From an uncultured bacterium (GTDB lineage Bacteria; CAIJMQ01), in the NCBI GenBank assembly GCA_903821905.1, contig CAIJMQ010000093.1:1-11091 (forward strand): a stretch of DNA of 11,091 bases, read 5' to 3'. This document shows, piece by piece, positions 3,350 through 10,991 of the stretch. Every line of letters starts with the position of its first letter. Position 1 is the first letter of the stretch. A program made the position numbers and the translations under genes. Below the pieces are notes generated by a model that saw only the letters and a list, made by a program, of their open reading frames with translations, did not search any database and was not told the DNA's origin.

Positions 3350-4255
3350 TCAATAAAAAAGGGGTAAAAGCACTCTCCGAAGGTTCTTTTTCTCTGTATT
3401 CTCTTTATTAAGAGCCTCTTTCAGTAAAGATACTTGTATCTTTGCTTCTTCCTCTCCTTTATCTATTATCTCTTTAGCTTTGGAAAAAGAGAACCAGTCC
3501 CATTTCTCCATAGGAGGAGAAAATAAAAAATCTGCCAGTGAGGATTCTATACGAGCAAATTCCAATTCTCTTATCTCGGTCGCTCTCATCAGAACTTCTA
3601 AAGCTTTTGAGGGTTTTTTGTTATCCAATTTACCGGAAGACATTGCTATTACAAAATCAGCTCCCATTTTTTCTGCAGCTGTAACAGGCATTCTACTCAA
3701 AACCCCTCCATCCACAAGAATTCTCCCTTTATCTTTTATAGGAGAAAAAAGACCAGGGACACTGGAAGAAGCTGCTACGAAACGCAGAAGATTGCCTTCT
3801 TGGATAAGAATTCTTTTGCCTTCTTTCACGTCGGTAGCTACACAGGCAAAGGGTATCTTTGCGTCGGCAAAAGTTAAATTACTGGGGATAAGACGGCTTA
3901 AACTTTCCATTAAATTTTCTTCTTCCCAGACACCTTCTCTAAATATATCTATAATGTAAAAGGCGATATCTCTTATGAATTCACCGATTTTTTTAATGCC
4001 TTGGGGTTCTAATGTGAATTGTTTCTCTAAATCTCTAACTCGTTTTTGCTGACAGAAATCGAAAATCAATTCCTCAATTTTTTTAGCTGGAACTCCAGTA
4101 GCAAAAAGAGCTCCTATAGCCGAACCCATACTGCATCCTACTATAAGGTTAATGGGGATTTTTTCTTTTTCCAAAACCTTCAAAACACCTATCTGGCAGA
4201 AAGACCTGGCCCCTCCACCTGAAAGAACAAGAGCAGTTTTACTTTTATTATTCAT
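3350..4255 (-). CDS. Patatin-like phospholipase (RssA/YchK type)
   Basis: This 301-residue protein is a patatin-like serine acyl hydrolase. The oxyanion-hole motif GGGAR is at residues 13-17, the nucleophile elbow GCSMG at 40-44 (Ser42), and the catalytic aspartate in DGG at 182-184 (Asp182). These give the complete Ser-Asp dyad expected to hydrolyse acyl esters of membrane phospholipids. There is no signal peptide, so it should act in the cytosol or at the inner face of the inner membrane. The family segments FACVATDVKEGK and FVAASSSVPGLFSPI are intact. The C-terminal third is charged and less conserved. Its ATG overlaps the last codons of the MacB-type permease by 8 bp and has no ribosome site of its own, so translation is probably coupled to the permease. 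It is the last gene of the marR-efflux operon, an unusual place for a patatin. Confidence 0.93.
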   Translation of the reverse strand: MNNKSKTALVLSGGGARSFCQIGVLKVLEKEKIPINLIVGCSMGSAIGALFATGVPAKKIEELIFDFCQQKRVRDLEKQFTLEPQGIKKIGEFIRDIAFYIIDIFREGVWEEENLMESLSRLIPSNLTFADAKIPFACVATDVKEGKRILIQEGNLLRFVAASSSVPGLFSPIKDKGRILVDGGVLSRMPVTAAEKMGADFVIAMSSGKLDNKKPSKALEVLMRATEIRELEFARIESSLADFLFSPPMEKWDWFSFSKAKEIIDKGEEEAKIQVSLLKEALNKENTEKKNLRRVLLPLFY

Positions 4256-5519
4256 ATCTTAACGCTTCAATTGGGTCTAATAAAGCAGCTTTTCTGGCAG
4301 GATATATCCCAAAAGTAAGTCCAACAGCAACCGAAATAAAGAAAGCCAATAAAACTGACCATAAAGTAACTATTGTAGCCATTCCTGCAAATTTAGAAAC
4401 TATTTTAGGGATTATAACACCAAGGATCACTCCGACAAAACCTCCCGAGGCCGAAAGAATAACTGCTTCTGTTACAAATTGATAGATAATATCTCTTCTC
4501 TTAGCGCCCAATGCTCTTCTTATGCCTATTTCTCTTGTTCTTTCTGTAACAGTTGCCAGCATAATATTCATAATGCCAATCCCGCCGACAATTAATGAAA
4601 TAGCTGCTATTGAGCCAAGAACAATACTAAAAATCTTTTTAGTATGTTCTGCTTGTTTTAACAATTCCAATGGGACAAGGATTTCGAAATCCGGCTTCTT
4701 ATGGGTTGATTCTAAAATCTTGTTTATCAATGCAGAAGTTGTAACTATCTTATTAGAATCCTCGACACGAACAATAAAACGATGAAATTCAACCCAAGTC
4801 CTATCCCAAAAATTATTTCTTATAAGTATAATTTCCCCGAAGAAACCTCTTGCCGTACTCAATGGAAGATATACATCAAAATTAATATCTTCTGCCGCAA
4901 AACTCTCCGTACCTTTTGAGAAAATTTTTGCTTCTACTACTCCAATTACTGTGAAATAATTACTTTTTACTTTTATGTCTTTACCAATAGGATTTACTCC
5001 AGCAAAAAGGGTATTTTTTATTGAAGAACCTACTACAACCACTGATTTACTTCTATCCATATCAACTTCATTTAAAAATCTCCCACCTTTCTCAACTCTC
5101 ATATTGGTAGTTTCCGCATAGTCTGGAGTAGCTCCTACAATTCTCCCAGGAGTACTTTTATTAAGATACCAAATTTCTTCTTGTGCCTCCCAAGTAGAGA
5201 CAATATTTGCAATTGAAGGAATTGACTCAATCTTCCTAAAATCTGAAGATGTAAGACCATAAACATTAAGCATAGCCCTTTGGGCTGTGTTTGCATCCGG
5301 AGGTTTTACACTTCTAATAATTATATTATTACTTCCAAGTTCTTTAATTTTTTCCCTTGCTTCAAAACTGGCACCTTCTCCAATGGCAAGCATTGCTATG
5401 ACAGAAGCAACTCCAAAAACAATTCCTAACATAGTAAGAAAAGAACGTAGTTTATGAAGCCACAGGTTCTTTCCTCCAAACCTTATTATTCTTAGGATAT
5501 GAGAAATATTAATTTTCAT
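4248..5519 (-). CDS. MacB/LolC-type ABC transporter permease
   Basis: This 423-residue protein has the fold of the MacB family: one N-terminal helix (about 27-46), a large periplasmic domain (about 50-290) and three C-terminal helices (about 297-322, 345-372 and 385-405). Hallmarks are the N-terminal LRSFLTMLGIVFGVASVIAM, the cytoplasmic coupling segment ATVTERTREIGIRRALGAK (322-340) and the terminal YPARKAALLDPIEALRYE (406-423). Proteins of this class do not pump through the membrane. They use ATP to drive substrate movement through an attached periplasmic adaptor and outer-membrane channel by mechanotransmission. Here the ATPase is a separate protein, whereas in E. coli MacB the two are fused. 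The gene overlaps the ATPase gene by 11 bp and the patatin gene by 8 bp. The substrate could be a drug, peptide, siderophore or lipid and cannot be read from sequence. Confidence 0.95.
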   Translation of the reverse strand: MKINISHILRIIRFGGKNLWLHKLRSFLTMLGIVFGVASVIAMLAIGEGASFEAREKIKELGSNNIIIRSVKPPDANTAQRAMLNVYGLTSSDFRKIESIPSIANIVSTWEAQEEIWYLNKSTPGRIVGATPDYAETTNMRVEKGGRFLNEVDMDRSKSVVVVGSSIKNTLFAGVNPIGKDIKVKSNYFTVIGVVEAKIFSKGTESFAAEDINFDVYLPLSTARGFFGEIILIRNNFWDRTWVEFHRFIVRVEDSNKIVTTSALINKILESTHKKPDFEILVPLELLKQAEHTKKIFSIVLGSIAAISLIVGGIGIMNIMLATVTERTREIGIRRALGAKRRDIIYQFVTEAVILSASGGFVGVILGVIIPKIVSKFAGMATIVTLWSVLLAFFISVAVGLTFGIYPARKAALLDPIEALRYE

Positions 5520-6189
5520 CTATAATTTTCCCGTCTAGTATTCGTATTATTCTTTTAGATTGATCTGCAATTTTCGGGTCATGGGTTATTACAACAAGCG
5601 TTTTACCTTCTTCATTTAAATGAATTAAGAGACTCATGATTTCCTTGCCAGTTTCACTATCAAGATTTCCGGTAGGCTCATCAGCCAAAATCAAAATTGG
5701 TTGATTTATTAAAGCTCTTGCAATTGCAACTCTTTGCCGTTCACCACCTGAAAGTTCGGAAGGTCTATGTTTAATACGGGCTGCCAAACCTACAAGCTTT
5801 GCCAATTCTAAAGCTTTATCTTGAATAACACTTTCATCAATTCCCTGATAGAAAAGCGGGATACCTATATTCTCCAATACAGTTAACTGGGGAATAAGAT
5901 TGAATGTCTGAAAAACAAAACCTATTTTTCGACTGCGAATTTCAGAAAGCTCTTCATCCGATAATGTAGAAATTTTTTTTTCTTCCATAAGATATTCTCC
6001 TTCGGTGGGTTTATCAAGACATCCGAGTATATTTAACATAGTTGTTTTACCGCTTCCAGAAGGGCCCATAATTGATAAATGTTCTCCCGTCGTTATAGAA
6101 AGGTTGATTCCTTTAAGAACAGAAACTTCCACTTGCCCAAGGCTGTAAACTTTCCCTATATTATTAAGATTTATTATTTCCTTTTTCAT
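5509..6189 (-). CDS. MacB/LolD-type ABC transporter ATP-binding protein
   Basis: This 226-residue protein is a complete ABC ATPase with every catalytic element. Walker A GPSGSGKT is at 42-49, the Q-loop glutamine at 94 (FVFQTFNLIPQLTV), the signature LSGGE at 146-150 followed by RQRVAIARAL, Walker B ILILADE at 165-171, the D-loop NLDS at 175-178 and the switch histidine at 203 (ITHDP). The sequence context (LGCLDKPTEGEY, ADEPTGNLDSETG) places it in the MacB/LolD/FtsE branch, which partners type VII permeases such as the adjacent one. It is a cytosolic subunit that dimerises and powers the permease. It starts 11 bp after the adaptor gene stops, without a clear ribosome site of its own, and its end overlaps the permease start. 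The length is normal for a stand-alone subunit. Confidence 0.97.
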   Translation of the reverse strand: MKKEIINLNNIGKVYSLGQVEVSVLKGINLSITTGEHLSIMGPSGSGKTTMLNILGCLDKPTEGEYLMEEKKISTLSDEELSEIRSRKIGFVFQTFNLIPQLTVLENIGIPLFYQGIDESVIQDKALELAKLVGLAARIKHRPSELSGGERQRVAIARALINQPILILADEPTGNLDSETGKEIMSLLIHLNEEGKTLVVITHDPKIADQSKRIIRILDGKIIDEN

Positions 6190-6200
6190 TGCTTGTTTCT

Positions 6201-7901
6201 TTATTTCCCAGGTTTTGCAGTTTCCTTGCTCTCAAATTTCCCTTTTTCTTCAGCAGATGTCTTTTTCACTTGATATCCTGTTTCCCCCGGCAATATTACT
6301 ACAACCTCACCCTCTTTTAATCCACTTTTTACCTCTACCATATCCTCATTACTACTACCAAGTTCAACTTCCCTAATTTCCATTCTACTTCCCCTTAAAA
6401 CAGAACATGTAGAATGGCCTTCTCTTTCCGATGTTACAGCCAAAGGAACTACAAGAACATTTTCCAATTTTTCAACTAAAACTTCTGCGTTCACAGACAT
6501 GCCAGGCTTTAGTAAATCAAAACCCTGCCCATTTTTATCAAGAGAAACTTCAATGAGATAAACGTTTAAATCCGGATTCATCCACTTAAAATTAGCATCA
6601 GGTAAAGGAGAAATCTTCTTCACTTCTCCGGTAAAGGTTTTGTCAGGGAAAGCATCTACTTTTACAATAGTTTTCTGCCCGAGTTTTATTTTCTCTACTG
6701 AAGCTTCATGAATTCTTATCTCCACTCCCATACTGCTAAAATCTGGCAAATTTAACAATGCTTCACGATTACGGACATTTGTACCAGCTTGAATAGGGTC
6801 TTGAGAACGCCAAGGATTGTCACTTGACGCATAGGTAACAAGCCCGGGTTGAGTTGCCCTGATTGTGCAATTAGCAATATCTCGTTCAGCATCGCTAAGA
6901 TTATTTTTGCGTTCAAGATATGTAGCTTCCGTACTTTTAACGTCCGCTTCGGACTTGATAATCTCCGAGTCGCATTTAGCTTTTGTTCTGTCCAATTCTC
7001 TCAGGGATTCACGATAATTAGAAAGAAGTAATGCCACTTGTTTGGGAAAGTCATAATCAAGGAAAAGTTGATATCCTAACTTGGAATTTTCTGAAGATGC
7101 TTCCTGTTGTTGTAAAGAAAATCTGTCTGCATCTAATTCACTTTTTGTTATATATTCCTTTTCAGATAATTTTTCACTCCATTGGACTCTATCTTTCGCC
7201 CGCGCAACTTCTTCTTTAGTAAGATCTATACTATTCTCAAGTTCTCTTTTCTTATTAAGAGCTTCTCCTTCCAACTGCTGATTTGCTATCAACTCTGAAA
7301 AATTTATATTCCCATCCACACTTGCAATAATCTCAGCAGCCAATTTCTCCCCTAAATATTTTTCTAAATCTATCTTCGCAAACTTAACGTTCAATCCTGC
7401 CTGTATAATATCGCTCTCGTTTTGTTTTTTCTGTATTTCAAGATTCTGTTGTGCCTGCGTATAAGATGACAAACTATTCTCCACGCTTATCCTTAACTCT
7501 TCTGCACGGTCATCTAAATCCTTTGAATCAAGTTTAATAAGGATTTTGCTATCCTGCACATCCTTTTCAGTGATTAATACCCCTTCATCAATTACCTCAA
7601 GAATATTTCTCTGCCCAGGGACTTCATTAATAATCTTCTGAGAACGTAATGCTTTGAGATTTCCACCTTCAATAACAGATACCACCAAGTTTTCTCTTTT
7701 AACCTGATATGTAATAAGTGTTGATATTTTTCTTCTACCTTGAACAATTCCATTAATAAACAAAATCAAGCAGATCAAAATAACTCCACCAGCCAAGAAA
7801 AATTTGTTTTTACCCTGTAATGCTTTAGATGATACAGTTTTAATAAACGACCAAGTTATATTCCAATGAGATTTAGTTGTTTTCACCACTGATTTTCCCA
7901 T
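6201..7901 (-). CDS. MacA/HlyD-like periplasmic adaptor subunit, long form
   Basis: This 566-residue membrane-fusion protein has a short cytoplasmic N-terminus and one membrane anchor (about 34-52). Two half lipoyl motifs (about 72-128 and 345-375, the latter with IRATQPGLVTYAS) flank a long helical hairpin (about 130-345) rich in Glu, Lys, Gln and Leu. A beta-barrel (about 390-480) and membrane-proximal domain (about 485-545) complete it. It would bridge the MacB-type permease and the TolC-like channel across the periplasm. At 566 residues it is much longer than E. coli MacA (about 370), mostly through the hairpin. The ATG at 7901 is chosen because AAGGAG lies six bases upstream. Further upstream in-frame starts (ATG 7931, TTG 7934) lack such a site. 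The chosen start still overlaps the end of the TolC-like gene by 29 bp. Confidence 0.92.
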   Translation of the reverse strand: MGKSVVKTTKSHWNITWSFIKTVSSKALQGKNKFFLAGGVILICLILFINGIVQGRRKISTLITYQVKRENLVVSVIEGGNLKALRSQKIINEVPGQRNILEVIDEGVLITEKDVQDSKILIKLDSKDLDDRAEELRISVENSLSSYTQAQQNLEIQKKQNESDIIQAGLNVKFAKIDLEKYLGEKLAAEIIASVDGNINFSELIANQQLEGEALNKKRELENSIDLTKEEVARAKDRVQWSEKLSEKEYITKSELDADRFSLQQQEASSENSKLGYQLFLDYDFPKQVALLLSNYRESLRELDRTKAKCDSEIIKSEADVKSTEATYLERKNNLSDAERDIANCTIRATQPGLVTYASSDNPWRSQDPIQAGTNVRNREALLNLPDFSSMGVEIRIHEASVEKIKLGQKTIVKVDAFPDKTFTGEVKKISPLPDANFKWMNPDLNVYLIEVSLDKNGQGFDLLKPGMSVNAEVLVEKLENVLVVPLAVTSEREGHSTCSVLRGSRMEIREVELGSSNEDMVEVKSGLKEGEVVVILPGETGYQVKKTSAEEKGKFESKETAKPGK

Positions 7902-9474
7902 AGAGGTCTCCTTTCCATACTCCACTTTCATCAATTTCCAAAGTTTCAGTATCTCTTAAAAATTCCAGATAAGAAACTAAATAGTTTACAATTGCAGTTG
8001 ATAAAGAATTCTTTGCATTCAGATAGGACTCTTGGGCATCAAGTAAATCCCGCGTAGTTGCTCTGCCAGCCTGAAGCAGTAAATCTGTCCCTTCCACTCT
8101 ATTACTTGCAAGTTTAAGGCTTTTATCTTGAATAAGATATGTCTGGTATAACTCTTCCAAATCTCGGCATAGATTCAAAATGTCAAGTTTCATCTCGTCT
8201 CTTGTTTGAGTAACATTTCTTTTTTGTCTCTCAAAGTTAATCAAAGCCTCTCTAAAAGTATTTCTTTCTGGAACTTTATTTACTGGCAATTCCAAATCCA
8301 AAGCCGCTGTGTAAGATGGTTTCTCAAGCTCAAAAGTAGGCTTATTTTCTACAGGAGTAAGACTTTTAACACCTAGATTTAAATCAAGCTTAGTCCTCAA
8401 CGCATTTAAAGCAATATCTACATTTCTCTTGTCATCTTCCAACTGGTCATAAGCTGTCATTAAATCAAGTCTCTTCTCGAGAGCCAACTTTATAGATTCC
8501 TGTGGGTCAAGTTTTATTTCAGACATCCCCTTTTCTAAAAACGTTTCTAATACACTGACTTCAAGCGAAATTTTTACTTCCGGAGACAGACCCAAAAATA
8601 TTTTAAACTCATCAAGGAGTTGTTGGTAATCATTATTGGCGGAAATCCAACTTTGATACGCTCTATATTCATCCTGCCTTGTTTGTCCTACTTCAATAAG
8701 AGTCGCTCTACCCGCTTCAGAAAGCATTTCTATTCTCTCTCTTGTTTGTTTTAAGTAAGTGTAATTCTTGGAGTAATTTTCGAGATTGTTTTTTACTTCC
8801 AGTAGAGTGAAATACTTATCTGCAACAGTTACAGAAAAACTCCTCTGATATCTCAAAAAAGACCTTATTTGATATATTACGTCTCTCTCTGTCTGGATTA
8901 ACCCTGCTTGGGCAACGCTTCTCCCTGCACCTCTGAAGAGCGGTTGAAGTATATCCAAACCAACAACCGTTTGAAAAGTTTCATCTACATTCCCGGTTAT
9001 ATACTTGAGATATTCTTGAGCAATATTAAATGTTATTTGAGTCCCTTGAGCCAGCCATTTTATAAGATTTAAATTCAAACCTGCAGCTACATTTTCCGTT
9101 CCAGCGTTATCTTCTTCCCATGTTACTGTTCCGTCTATTCCATACCGTAAGCTGTAGTTATATCTCTGTGAAATCAAAGCTAAGGTTTTTAGGTAAACAT
9201 CCTCTTTAGCTGTTTGATAATCTCTATTATTTCTCGTAGCAATAATCAAAACATCTTTAAGGCTTAAAGGAGTATCTTCTGAAGGAGCCTCCTGTGTTGT
9301 TGGGAACTCAATATCCCATGGAATTTTCTCGGGGGTAACCTCTTTCGTCTTCTTCTCTAAGACCTTATAAACCTCTCTGTCAGCAGAAGTTTTTATTCGT
9401 GTAGCACTACATCCTGCAAGAAAAAAAATCATTAAAACCAGCGCTATATTACTAACACAATTTAGTTGTTTCAT
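7873..9474 (-). CDS. TolC-family outer-membrane efflux lipoprotein
   Basis: This 533-residue protein begins with a lipoprotein signal peptide: MKQLNC, a hydrophobic core, then the lipobox LAGC with Cys22 as the lipidated residue. The rest follows the outer membrane efflux protein pattern, two homologous halves (about 75-300 and 310-510). Each ends in helices of the kind EAGRATLIEVGQTRQDEYRAYQ (first half) and QAGRATTRDLLDAQESYLNA (second half), the latter a strong TolC-family signature. It would trimerise to a channel-tunnel in the outer membrane and dock on the adaptor encoded next. A polar linker of about 50 residues follows the lipid anchor. The gene starts 11 bp after marR without a clear ribosome site, suggesting coupled translation, and overlaps the adaptor start. 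All the channel features expected from sequence are present. Confidence 0.95.
   Translation of the reverse strand: MKQLNCVSNIALVLMIFFLAGCSATRIKTSADREVYKVLEKKTKEVTPEKIPWDIEFPTTQEAPSEDTPLSLKDVLIIATRNNRDYQTAKEDVYLKTLALISQRYNYSLRYGIDGTVTWEEDNAGTENVAAGLNLNLIKWLAQGTQITFNIAQEYLKYITGNVDETFQTVVGLDILQPLFRGAGRSVAQAGLIQTERDVIYQIRSFLRYQRSFSVTVADKYFTLLEVKNNLENYSKNYTYLKQTRERIEMLSEAGRATLIEVGQTRQDEYRAYQSWISANNDYQQLLDEFKIFLGLSPEVKISLEVSVLETFLEKGMSEIKLDPQESIKLALEKRLDLMTAYDQLEDDKRNVDIALNALRTKLDLNLGVKSLTPVENKPTFELEKPSYTAALDLELPVNKVPERNTFREALINFERQKRNVTQTRDEMKLDILNLCRDLEELYQTYLIQDKSLKLASNRVEGTDLLLQAGRATTRDLLDAQESYLNAKNSLSTAIVNYLVSYLEFLRDTETLEIDESGVWKGDLYGKISGENN
7908..7914 (-). promoter_or_regulatory. Internal ribosome binding site of the adaptor gene
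   Basis: AAAGGAG on the minus strand, six bases before the ATG at 7901 and lying inside the 3' end of the TolC-like reading frame. It is the only clear Shine-Dalgarno sequence that I see within the six-gene operon and it decides the adaptor start. Confidence 0.8.
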
Positions 9475-9485
9475 TGTTTTGTTCT

Positions 9486-9947
9486 TTATTTATGGGTCGT
9501 TTGGGCACAATTCAAAGGAGATTTCCCGATAAGTTTATTCAGCTCTTCAAGATGGACAACTAATTTCTTTTGTTCATCAGAAGAAAGATTCCCCAATAGT
9601 TGAACCACACGTTTTTTTCTAAGCCGTTTTTGGGTCTGAATGAACTTTTTCCCGTTACCAATTAAACAAAGCCTCGTTATTCTTCTATCCTTCTCGTCTG
9701 TTATTCTGCTTACAAATTTAGATTTCACCAACCTATCCACAATAGAACTAACAGTAGCCCGGCTAACTCCTGTAATTTCTGCTATCTGACTCATAGAAAG
9801 TTCGCCTTGAGCTGCCAATATCCACATAATCCTCATTTGAGCAAAGGTTATATTGTGTAAAAGAGGTTTTTTAGACGAATGAGAATGCATAGTTCTCATT
9901 ACCCTACTAAACAAAAATTCTATCTTTTCAACGTTTACCGTATCCAT
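9486..9947 (-). CDS. MarR-family transcriptional regulator
   Basis: This 153-residue protein has the winged-helix layout of the MarR family: N-terminal dimerisation helices (about 3-22), the HTH with LSMSQIAEITGVSRATVSSIVDRL (50-73, recognition helix about 62-73), and the beta-wing with the conserved DEKDRR (84-89). Long C-terminal dimerisation helices (about 97-140) complete it. MarR proteins are dimeric repressors that release DNA when they bind small phenolic or other ligands, and they often control adjacent efflux genes. As first gene of the efflux operon, with tandem palindromes over its own promoter, it most likely represses the whole operon including itself. The ATG at 9947 gives the normal N-terminus. 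Its ribosome site is weak (AAAGAA). The inducer is unknown. Confidence 0.96.
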   Translation of the reverse strand: MDTVNVEKIEFLFSRVMRTMHSHSSKKPLLHNITFAQMRIMWILAAQGELSMSQIAEITGVSRATVSSIVDRLVKSKFVSRITDEKDRRITRLCLIGNGKKFIQTQKRLRKKRVVQLLGNLSSDEQKKLVVHLEELNKLIGKSPLNCAQTTHK

Positions 9948-9957
9948 TTCTTTATAT

Positions 9958-9989
9958 TAGTTAGAATAGCTAATAGTTAGATTTGCTAA
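9958..9989 (-). promoter_or_regulatory. Tandem MarR operator candidates
   Basis: Two 16-bp direct repeats (9974-9989 and 9958-9973) match at 14 of 16 positions. On the minus strand they read TTAGCAAATCTAACTA and TTAGCTATTCTAACTA. Each contains a 13-bp palindrome TTAG-N5-CTAA (9977-9989 and 9961-9973). The first abuts the -10 box and both lie over the predicted start and leader, so a dimer bound to each would block the promoter. Further TATATTAG copies flank the array (9953-9960 and 9991-9998). Size and position fit MarR operators. Confidence 0.75.
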
Positions 9990-10017
9990 GTATATTAGGT
10001 TGGAAAATCAAAGTCAA
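9989..10017 (-). promoter_or_regulatory. Sigma70-type promoter of the marR-efflux-patatin operon
   Basis: On the minus strand TTGACT (10012-10017), a 17-bp spacer and TATACT (9989-9994), with predicted start near 9982, about 35 nt before the marR ATG. The -35 box overlaps the stop codon (10014-10016) of the hldD-like gene, so there is no separate intergenic spacer upstream. Confidence 0.8.
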
Positions 10018-10991
10018 TGCTCAAGATAAGAATTACCTTTCAGAAGATAATTCTTCACGTAATCCGATACCGCTTCTTTTAGTGTATGAGTTTTCTTTAT
10101 ATATCCTGCGTTCTTTAGCTTTTTCATATCGGCTTGGGTAAAGTACTGATATTTATCCTTTATGGGATTAGGCATATCTATATATTCAATATCCACTTCT
10201 TTTCCCATCGCTTCAAAAACCGCCGTTACAAGTTTACAAAAACTTTCTGCTTTTCCTGTACCGATATTAAATATTCCGTTTGCTTTTTTATTCTCAAATA
10301 TGAAAAGCGTCATTTCTACCGCATCCTTGATATATAAAAAATCTCTCATTTGATAACCATCTTTATATTGTGGGTTATAGGATTTAAAAAGTTGAACTTT
10401 ACCATCTCGTTTTATCTGCCTGAATGCTTTCAGAACCATACTTCTCATATTACCTTTGTGGTATTCATTAGGACCAAAACAATTGAAGTATTTGAGTCCT
10501 GCAATATATTTTAATAAACCTCCTTTATAAGCCCACAAGTCAAATAGATGTTTTGAACAGGCATAGGGATTCAGCGGTTTCAATTTTCCAAGATAAGAGT
10601 GCTCGTCACAAAAACCTTCCTGTCCGTTTCCATATGTAGCTGCGGAGGAAGCGTATACTAACCTCTTGTTATTTTTGATACACCATATTGCTATTTTCTT
10701 TGTATACTCATAGTTGTTCTGCATCAGATAATCAGCATCATATACAGTCGTAGAACTCTCGGCACCCATATGAATGATACCGTCTACTTTATTCCCAAAT
10801 TTACCCTTTTCGAGCTTTTCAATAAATTCATCTTTATCTATGGATTCTTTAAATTCTAAATTGGTAAGGTTGCCCCATTTTTTACATTTATCAAGCACAT
10901 CGACAACCAAGATTTCAGTATATCCCCTTAAATTAAGCCCCCATACAATAGCACTGCCAATAAATCCAGCACCACCTGTCACTATAATCAT
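10014..10991 (-). CDS. hldD: ADP-L-glycero-D-manno-heptose 6-epimerase
   Basis: This 325-residue protein is an extended short-chain dehydrogenase/reductase that matches HldD (RfaD) along its length. The Rossmann motif TGGAGFIG is at 5-12 and Asp31 ends the second strand. The active site has Ser115/116 in YASSAATYG and the YxxxK pair Tyr143/Lys147 in NPYACSK. HldD-specific segments include HMGAESSTT (74-82), KYFNCFGPNEYHKG (167-180), FNIGTGKAESF and QYFTQADMKKLKNAGY near the end. The enzyme inverts C6 of ADP-heptose to give the L-glycero-D-manno-heptose used in the lipopolysaccharide inner core, in the cytosol with bound NAD(P). E. coli HldD has 310 residues, so the length is normal. The start ATG at 10991 has no obvious ribosome site. 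A second gene probably ends 38 bp upstream, suggesting a cotranscribed unit extending beyond the window. Confidence 0.93.
   Translation of the reverse strand: MIIVTGGAGFIGSAIVWGLNLRGYTEILVVDVLDKCKKWGNLTNLEFKESIDKDEFIEKLEKGKFGNKVDGIIHMGAESSTTVYDADYLMQNNYEYTKKIAIWCIKNNKRLVYASSAATYGNGQEGFCDEHSYLGKLKPLNPYACSKHLFDLWAYKGGLLKYIAGLKYFNCFGPNEYHKGNMRSMVLKAFRQIKRDGKVQLFKSYNPQYKDGYQMRDFLYIKDAVEMTLFIFENKKANGIFNIGTGKAESFCKLVTAVFEAMGKEVDIEYIDMPNPIKDKYQYFTQADMKKLKNAGYIKKTHTLKEAVSDYVKNYLLKGNSYLEH

Follow-up and report, generated by a model that had tools for sequence, protein, structure and literature searches.

The MarR family includes several regulators whose operators bear on the locus described here. MepR of Staphylococcus aureus, the MarR-family autorepressor of the mepRA operon (MATE efflux), recognizes the half-site signature GTTAG (PMC8044140), and its site at mepR covers the start region just after the -10 box; one dimer is thought to bind at the mepR promoter and two at the mepA promoter (PMC3617543). 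MexR of Pseudomonas aeruginosa, a regulator of RND efflux, has two sites, PI and PII, with half-sites arranged as GTTGA-N5-TCAAC (PMC9892617). The SlyA/RovA proteins of Enterobacteriaceae use the half-site TTAGC/GCTAA and are linked to an efflux system that they repress (PMC6401476), with SlyA also acting as a countersilencer of horizontally acquired genes. Finally, in the Rv2887–DNA complex of Mycobacterium tuberculosis two MarR dimers occupy nearly opposite faces of 30 bp of DNA, with about 15 bp for each dimer (PMC5526998).

Here we analyze an 11,091-nucleotide stretch of DNA from an uncultured bacterium (hereinafter the window) in which a gene for a MarR-family protein heads a predicted efflux operon and is preceded by a tandem of palindromes. 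As with mepRA, the predicted arrangement is that of a MarR-family autorepressor of an efflux operon, and the predicted operator takes the position of the MepR site at mepR, directly behind the -10 box. The window differs from the MepR system in that the promoter of the regulator carries two complete TTAG-N5-CTAA palindromes with a period of 16 bp, and in its pump, a MacAB-TolC-type ABC exporter accompanied by a patatin gene. The five-base separation of the half-sites is shared with MexR, whose half-site is TTGA as compared to TTAG in the window. In contrast, the SlyA consensus TTAGCAAGCTAA corresponds to TTAG-N4-CTAA, whereas both palindromes of the window have N5 and are thus not of the SlyA type. 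The Rv2887 target is unlike the window in being GC-rich, in having only one palindromic site of the two and in being recognized by indirect readout.

A probable operator joined to the promoter of an efflux operon

The first gene of the operon codes for a 153-residue winged-helix protein that scores well above the curated Pfam cut-offs for both MarR_2 (59.1 bits against a cut-off of 27) and MarR (55.7 bits against 24.6). The genes that follow on the same strand code consecutively for an outer-membrane factor, a periplasmic adaptor, an ABC ATPase and a MacB-like permease, which together constitute a tripartite exporter of the MacAB-TolC type, and the operon ends with a patatin-like phospholipase (Table 1). 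These genes are tightly packed, with the listed start of the adaptor gene overlapping the TolC-like gene, and marR-tolC-hlyD-ABC-macB-patatin is most simply read as one transcript. The patatin-like gene overlaps the end of the MacB-type exporter gene. Separately, the ABC ATPase gene contains an imperfect 18-bp tandem repeat with 84% matches (5782–5817). We found no terminator-like site between the upstream epimerase gene and the promoter; hence, some read-through from that gene is possible.

Table 1. Features of the window (positions in the 11,091-nucleotide stretch; strand relative to the sequence as given)
Feature	Position	Strand	Basis and remarks
Patatin-like phospholipase, last gene of the operon	3350..4255	-	Pfam Patatin 1.6e-29; 8-nt overlap with the permease gene
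MacB-like FtsX permease	4248..5519	-	Pfam MacB_PCD 7.2e-37, FtsX 2.8e-20; overlaps the ATPase gene
ABC transporter ATPase	5509..6189	-	Pfam ABC_tran 1e-33; 11-nt gap to the adaptor gene
Periplasmic adaptor (HlyD/MFP type)	6201..7934	-	Pfam HlyD_D23 3.8e-10, HlyD_3 3.7e-08
Outer-membrane efflux protein (TolC/OEP type)	7873..9474	-	Pfam OEP 2.3e-24; 11-nt gap to marR
MarR-family regulator, first gene of the operon	9486..9947	-	Pfam MarR_2 5e-16, MarR 4.5e-15
Operator palindrome 2	9961..9973	-	sequence; TTAG-N5-CTAA, 13 bp
Spacer CTA	9974..9976	-	3 bp; sets 16 bp centre to centre
Operator palindrome 1	9977..9989	-	sequence; TTAG-N5-CTAA, 13 bp
Predicted transcription start	9982	-	inferred, about 7 nt past the -10 box; inside palindrome 1
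-10 hexamer TATACT	9989..9994	-	17 nt from the -35 hexamer
-35 hexamer TTGACT	10012..10017	-	sequence and consensus scan
NAD-dependent sugar-nucleotide epimerase, upstream gene	10014..10991	-	Pfam Epimerase 6.8e-39

Read along the minus strand, the pair TTGACT-N17-TATACT, which matches the consensus at 10 of 12 positions in a consensus scan, is followed by TTAGCAAATCTAA-CTA-TTAGCTATTCTAA, such that a pseudopalindromic site is positioned over the MarR regulator's own promoter. The -35 hexamer overlaps the TGA stop (10014–10016) of the epimerase gene, and the ATG of marR (9947) lies 13 nt downstream of palindrome 2. An earlier sequence-only reading had described a near-consensus promoter followed by two 16-bp repeats identical at 14 of 16 positions; direct comparison of the two units and Tandem Repeats Finder (9958–9989, period 16, 2.0 copies) reconfirm this description, and the tandem is the sole one of its kind with a 16-bp period in the window. 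The same reading placed the first palindrome as abutting the -10 box. The contact is real, but it goes beyond mere abutting, as the last T of the box (9989) doubles as the base with which palindrome 1 opens. Each of the four half-sites contains TTAG, preceded by C, G, A and G in turn; two of the arms accordingly read GTTAG, the signature of MepR, and the other two do not. An additional inverted element, CTAA-N5-TTAG (CTAATATACTTAG, 9986–9998), overlaps the -10 box; it is probably incidental since no consistent counterpart of it was seen in the homologous modules discussed below.

When sequences of the length of the window are simulated with a first-order Markov model, 0.8% of them contain a 16-bp tandem of equal quality, and the double palindrome is found once in the 1.30-Mb draft genome of the organism. 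Single TTAG-N5-CTAA sites are not enriched in that genome (29 as compared to 47 for the reversed control). Among 15 distinct single sites that were inspected, 13 lie inside open reading frames and each of the two in intergenic DNA consists of one palindrome alone; therefore, no further target was found, and this search of the draft genome lends no support to a wider regulon.

Recurrence of the double site at MarR genes

We scanned the exact pattern TTAG-N5-CTAA-N3-TTAG-N5-CTAA over the GTDB species contigs, with a query that consisted of DNA only and carried no information on the neighboring genes, and recovered at least 120 loci. Among the matches listed, 76 of 120 have the 5′ end of a MarR open reading frame no more than 250 bp from the tandem. 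Of these 120 listed loci, 37 come from Micrococcaceae, and outside that family the MarR start lies within the same distance at 40 of the 83 loci listed. A second count relied on a profile derived from four proteins, namely the window MarR and three relatives from its phylum that lack the exact tandem: this profile detects a MarR at 74 of the 120 listed loci, as compared to 4 of 662 control positions shifted by 1–3 kb within the same loci. Pfam confirmed the MarR assignment in all ten proteins sampled. The MarR-adjacent loci are spread over at least 16 named phylum-level groups, including archaea, where they occur in Bathyarchaeota, Thermoplasmatota, Thermoproteota and Nitrososphaerota. Thus, the proposal of the earlier reading that the tandem is a MarR operator gains strong support from its association with MarR genes across genomes, together with a recurrent promoter register and a frequent linkage to exporters (see below).

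The tandem lacks an adjacent MarR at 44 of the 120 loci among the matches listed. Some of these sites precede unrelated genes, and one in Microbacterium (L054) precedes a gene for a TetR-like regulator; hence, the motif is not confined to MarR genes. In Microbacteriaceae we observed TTAGC-N3-GCTAA tandems with the same 16-bp period, none of whose eight loci has an adjacent MarR (among them L054:7928, L067:3290, L082:5904, L089:212 and L128:6295). In certain cyanobacterial loci (L072, L141, L147 and L150), the tandem is not placed at the start of the MarR gene but 0.7–1.4 kb away from it, and possibly controls the genes in between.

Genes for ABC exporters, for RND pumps and for an MFS protein are found among the neighbors of the MarR-adjacent modules. 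A chloroflexotan locus (L063) and one from an unclassified bacterium (L098) carry MarR-HlyD-ABC-MacB in the order that these genes have in the window, and an omnitrophotan locus (L168) combines MarR with an RND pump and a protein of the TolC type. At four loci (L122, L127, L139 and L118) a tandem without a MarR neighbor directly precedes MFS, RND or HlyD genes, which is what one would expect if regulators of this kind also had distant targets. Two of these come from Nostoc relatives (L122:4259 and L127:1781), where the tandem lies 38–45 bp before an MFS exporter gene and no MarR is encoded within the fetched DNA.

Spacing of the palindromes and register with the promoter

We scanned spacers of 0 to 16 bases over 786 genomes, of which 386 were varied and 400 belonged to one Chloroflexota-centred group. 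MarR-adjacent pairs were recovered with spacers of 0 (nine pairs, mostly from one chloroflexotan orthologue group), 2 (one pair), 3 (four in addition to the window) and 10 (one pair), and no pair with a MarR neighbor was found in these 786 genomes for spacers of 5, 6, 7, 9, 11, 13 or 15. A period of 16 bp is one preferred period at MarR genes, with counts that are small and partly orthologous. The pairs with no spacer constitute a second fixed geometry: a TTAG-N5-CTAA doublet with a 13-bp period (CTAATTAG at the junction) is found at the starts of MarR genes in Chloroflexota, and likewise in a single genome from elsewhere (L184–L191 and L179, operator at 1501–1526).

The register of the operator with the promoter was examined in an alignment of the 35 MarR-adjacent modules that come from bacteria outside the Micrococcaceae. 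In 15 of the 35 modules TTGAC starts at -27 or -28 from the operator, and in 16 of them a promoter matching at least 9 of 12 consensus positions has its -10 box ending on the first T of the operator, exactly as in the window, as compared to an expectation of 0.20 from shuffled upstream sequence. The hexamers taken by themselves are not significant, with 38 promoter-like sites in the window as compared to 35.8 expected; it is through its register with the operator that the promoter stands out. The Micrococcaceae, whose loci with the tandem operator include L051, L056–L058, L062 and L064, show a distinct arrangement: in 26 of 35 loci TTGAC is placed at -7 from the operator, and an ATG follows the double site within a few bases. 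The double site therefore lies over the -10 region in this family, and Arthrobacter and its relatives probably use a leaderless promoter embedded in the operator. Several of the archaeal loci have a TATA-like stretch directly next to the operator.

The window MarR and its relatives

The window MarR retains the wing motif D-R-R (D87, R88 and R89), with R89 being invariant across the aligned MarR rows, and has an alanine at position 64 as compared to the proline found in 88% of the tandem-associated MarRs. It is at most about 31% identical over its full length to any other MarR, and a protein scan of the GTDB contigs with it recovered no close relative. The relatives from its own phylum (27–30% identity, six genomes) lack the exact tandem; hence, no footprint from close relatives is available for the operator. 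The MarR tree, which bears on whether the tandem-associated MarRs have a single origin, is poorly resolved: the tandem-associated label changes 17 times on it as compared to 33 in shuffles, and the window MarR does not group firmly with the tandem-associated MarRs.

A proposed mechanism and its alternatives

We consider it very probable that the tandem serves the adjacent MarR as an operator for autoregulation; two dimers on opposite faces of the DNA would then block the start region and repress the operon until a ligand released them. Under this proposal, the marR-tolC-hlyD-ABC-macB-patatin operon has a sigma-70-type promoter joined directly to the operator, and each 13-bp TTAG-N5-CTAA palindrome would take one MarR dimer via its two winged-helix domains. 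The two dimers would sit side by side, span the predicted transcript from about -7 to +22, and lie on nearly opposite faces because the centres of their sites are 16 bp apart, i.e., about 1.5 turns at about 10.5 bp per turn. This geometry had been put forward by the sequence-only reading; its arithmetic holds and the Rv2887 complex offers a precedent for it (PMC5526998). The bound dimers would stop RNA polymerase from binding or from opening the start region, such that the regulator and the pump would be repressed together, and a small ligand, probably a substrate of the pump, would release the MarR protein, in keeping with ligand release being the norm in the family (PMC6401476). Cooperativity between the dimers is possible, and the kept spacing argues for it. 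Weighing against the proposal as a whole are the lack of the exact tandem in the relatives from the phylum, the tandems that have no MarR neighbor, and the alanine 64 and loose tree placement of the window MarR.

An alternative that we regard as unlikely is that a single dimer acts in vivo, with one palindrome as the true operator, the other weak or vestigial, and repression effected by occlusion of a single site. The single dimer thought to bind the mepR promoter (PMC3617543) would be a parallel for this, and palindrome 2 of the window indeed lies beyond the core promoter. However, neither palindrome has lost an arm, and a period of 16 bp is encountered at MarR genes in at least 16 named phylum-level groups, which implies selection on the pair. 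We give distinctly less credence to the possibility that another regulator, of the TetR type or otherwise, binds the site while the adjacent MarR acts elsewhere: a survey of Pfam domains and open reading frames found no other regulator encoded in the operon or its immediate neighbors, and the DNA pattern alone retrieves MarR genes at most of the listed loci, against which stand the MarR-less tandems that precede other genes, including the TetR-like one of Microbacterium. That the tandem is a chance repeat in an AT-rich region with no excess of promoter-like hexamers, or an RNA or leader element, in either case without operator function, is scarcely credible, given that the double palindrome appears in none of 3000 simulated window-length sequences, that the leader folds no better than its shuffles (z -0.28) and has no Rfam match, and that loci with the pattern are strongly enriched in MarR genes.

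Implications

By itself, the locus would be an ordinary MarR autoregulatory operator; the new part is the exact composite layout that recurs across phyla. We posit, with about equal weight for and against, that this layout constitutes an undescribed phylum-spanning module, in which TTGAC-N17-TATAxT shares its T with TTAG-N5-CTAA-N3-TTAG-N5-CTAA ahead of a nearby start codon, the start region would be held by two MarR dimers on opposite faces, and this geometry would have been kept despite the divergence of the MarRs to about 25–30% identity. We found no description of such a fixed-geometry module in the open-licence papers searched. Alternative fixed layouts also occur, namely those of the Micrococcaceae, with TTGAC abutting the operator, and of the Chloroflexota, with the 13-bp period. 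With the exact DNA pattern, exporters under MarR control, and their targets, could be found at little cost in lineages that have not been cultivated. For the source organism, the pattern predicts that a MacAB-TolC-type exporter and a patatin lipase are under inducible control.
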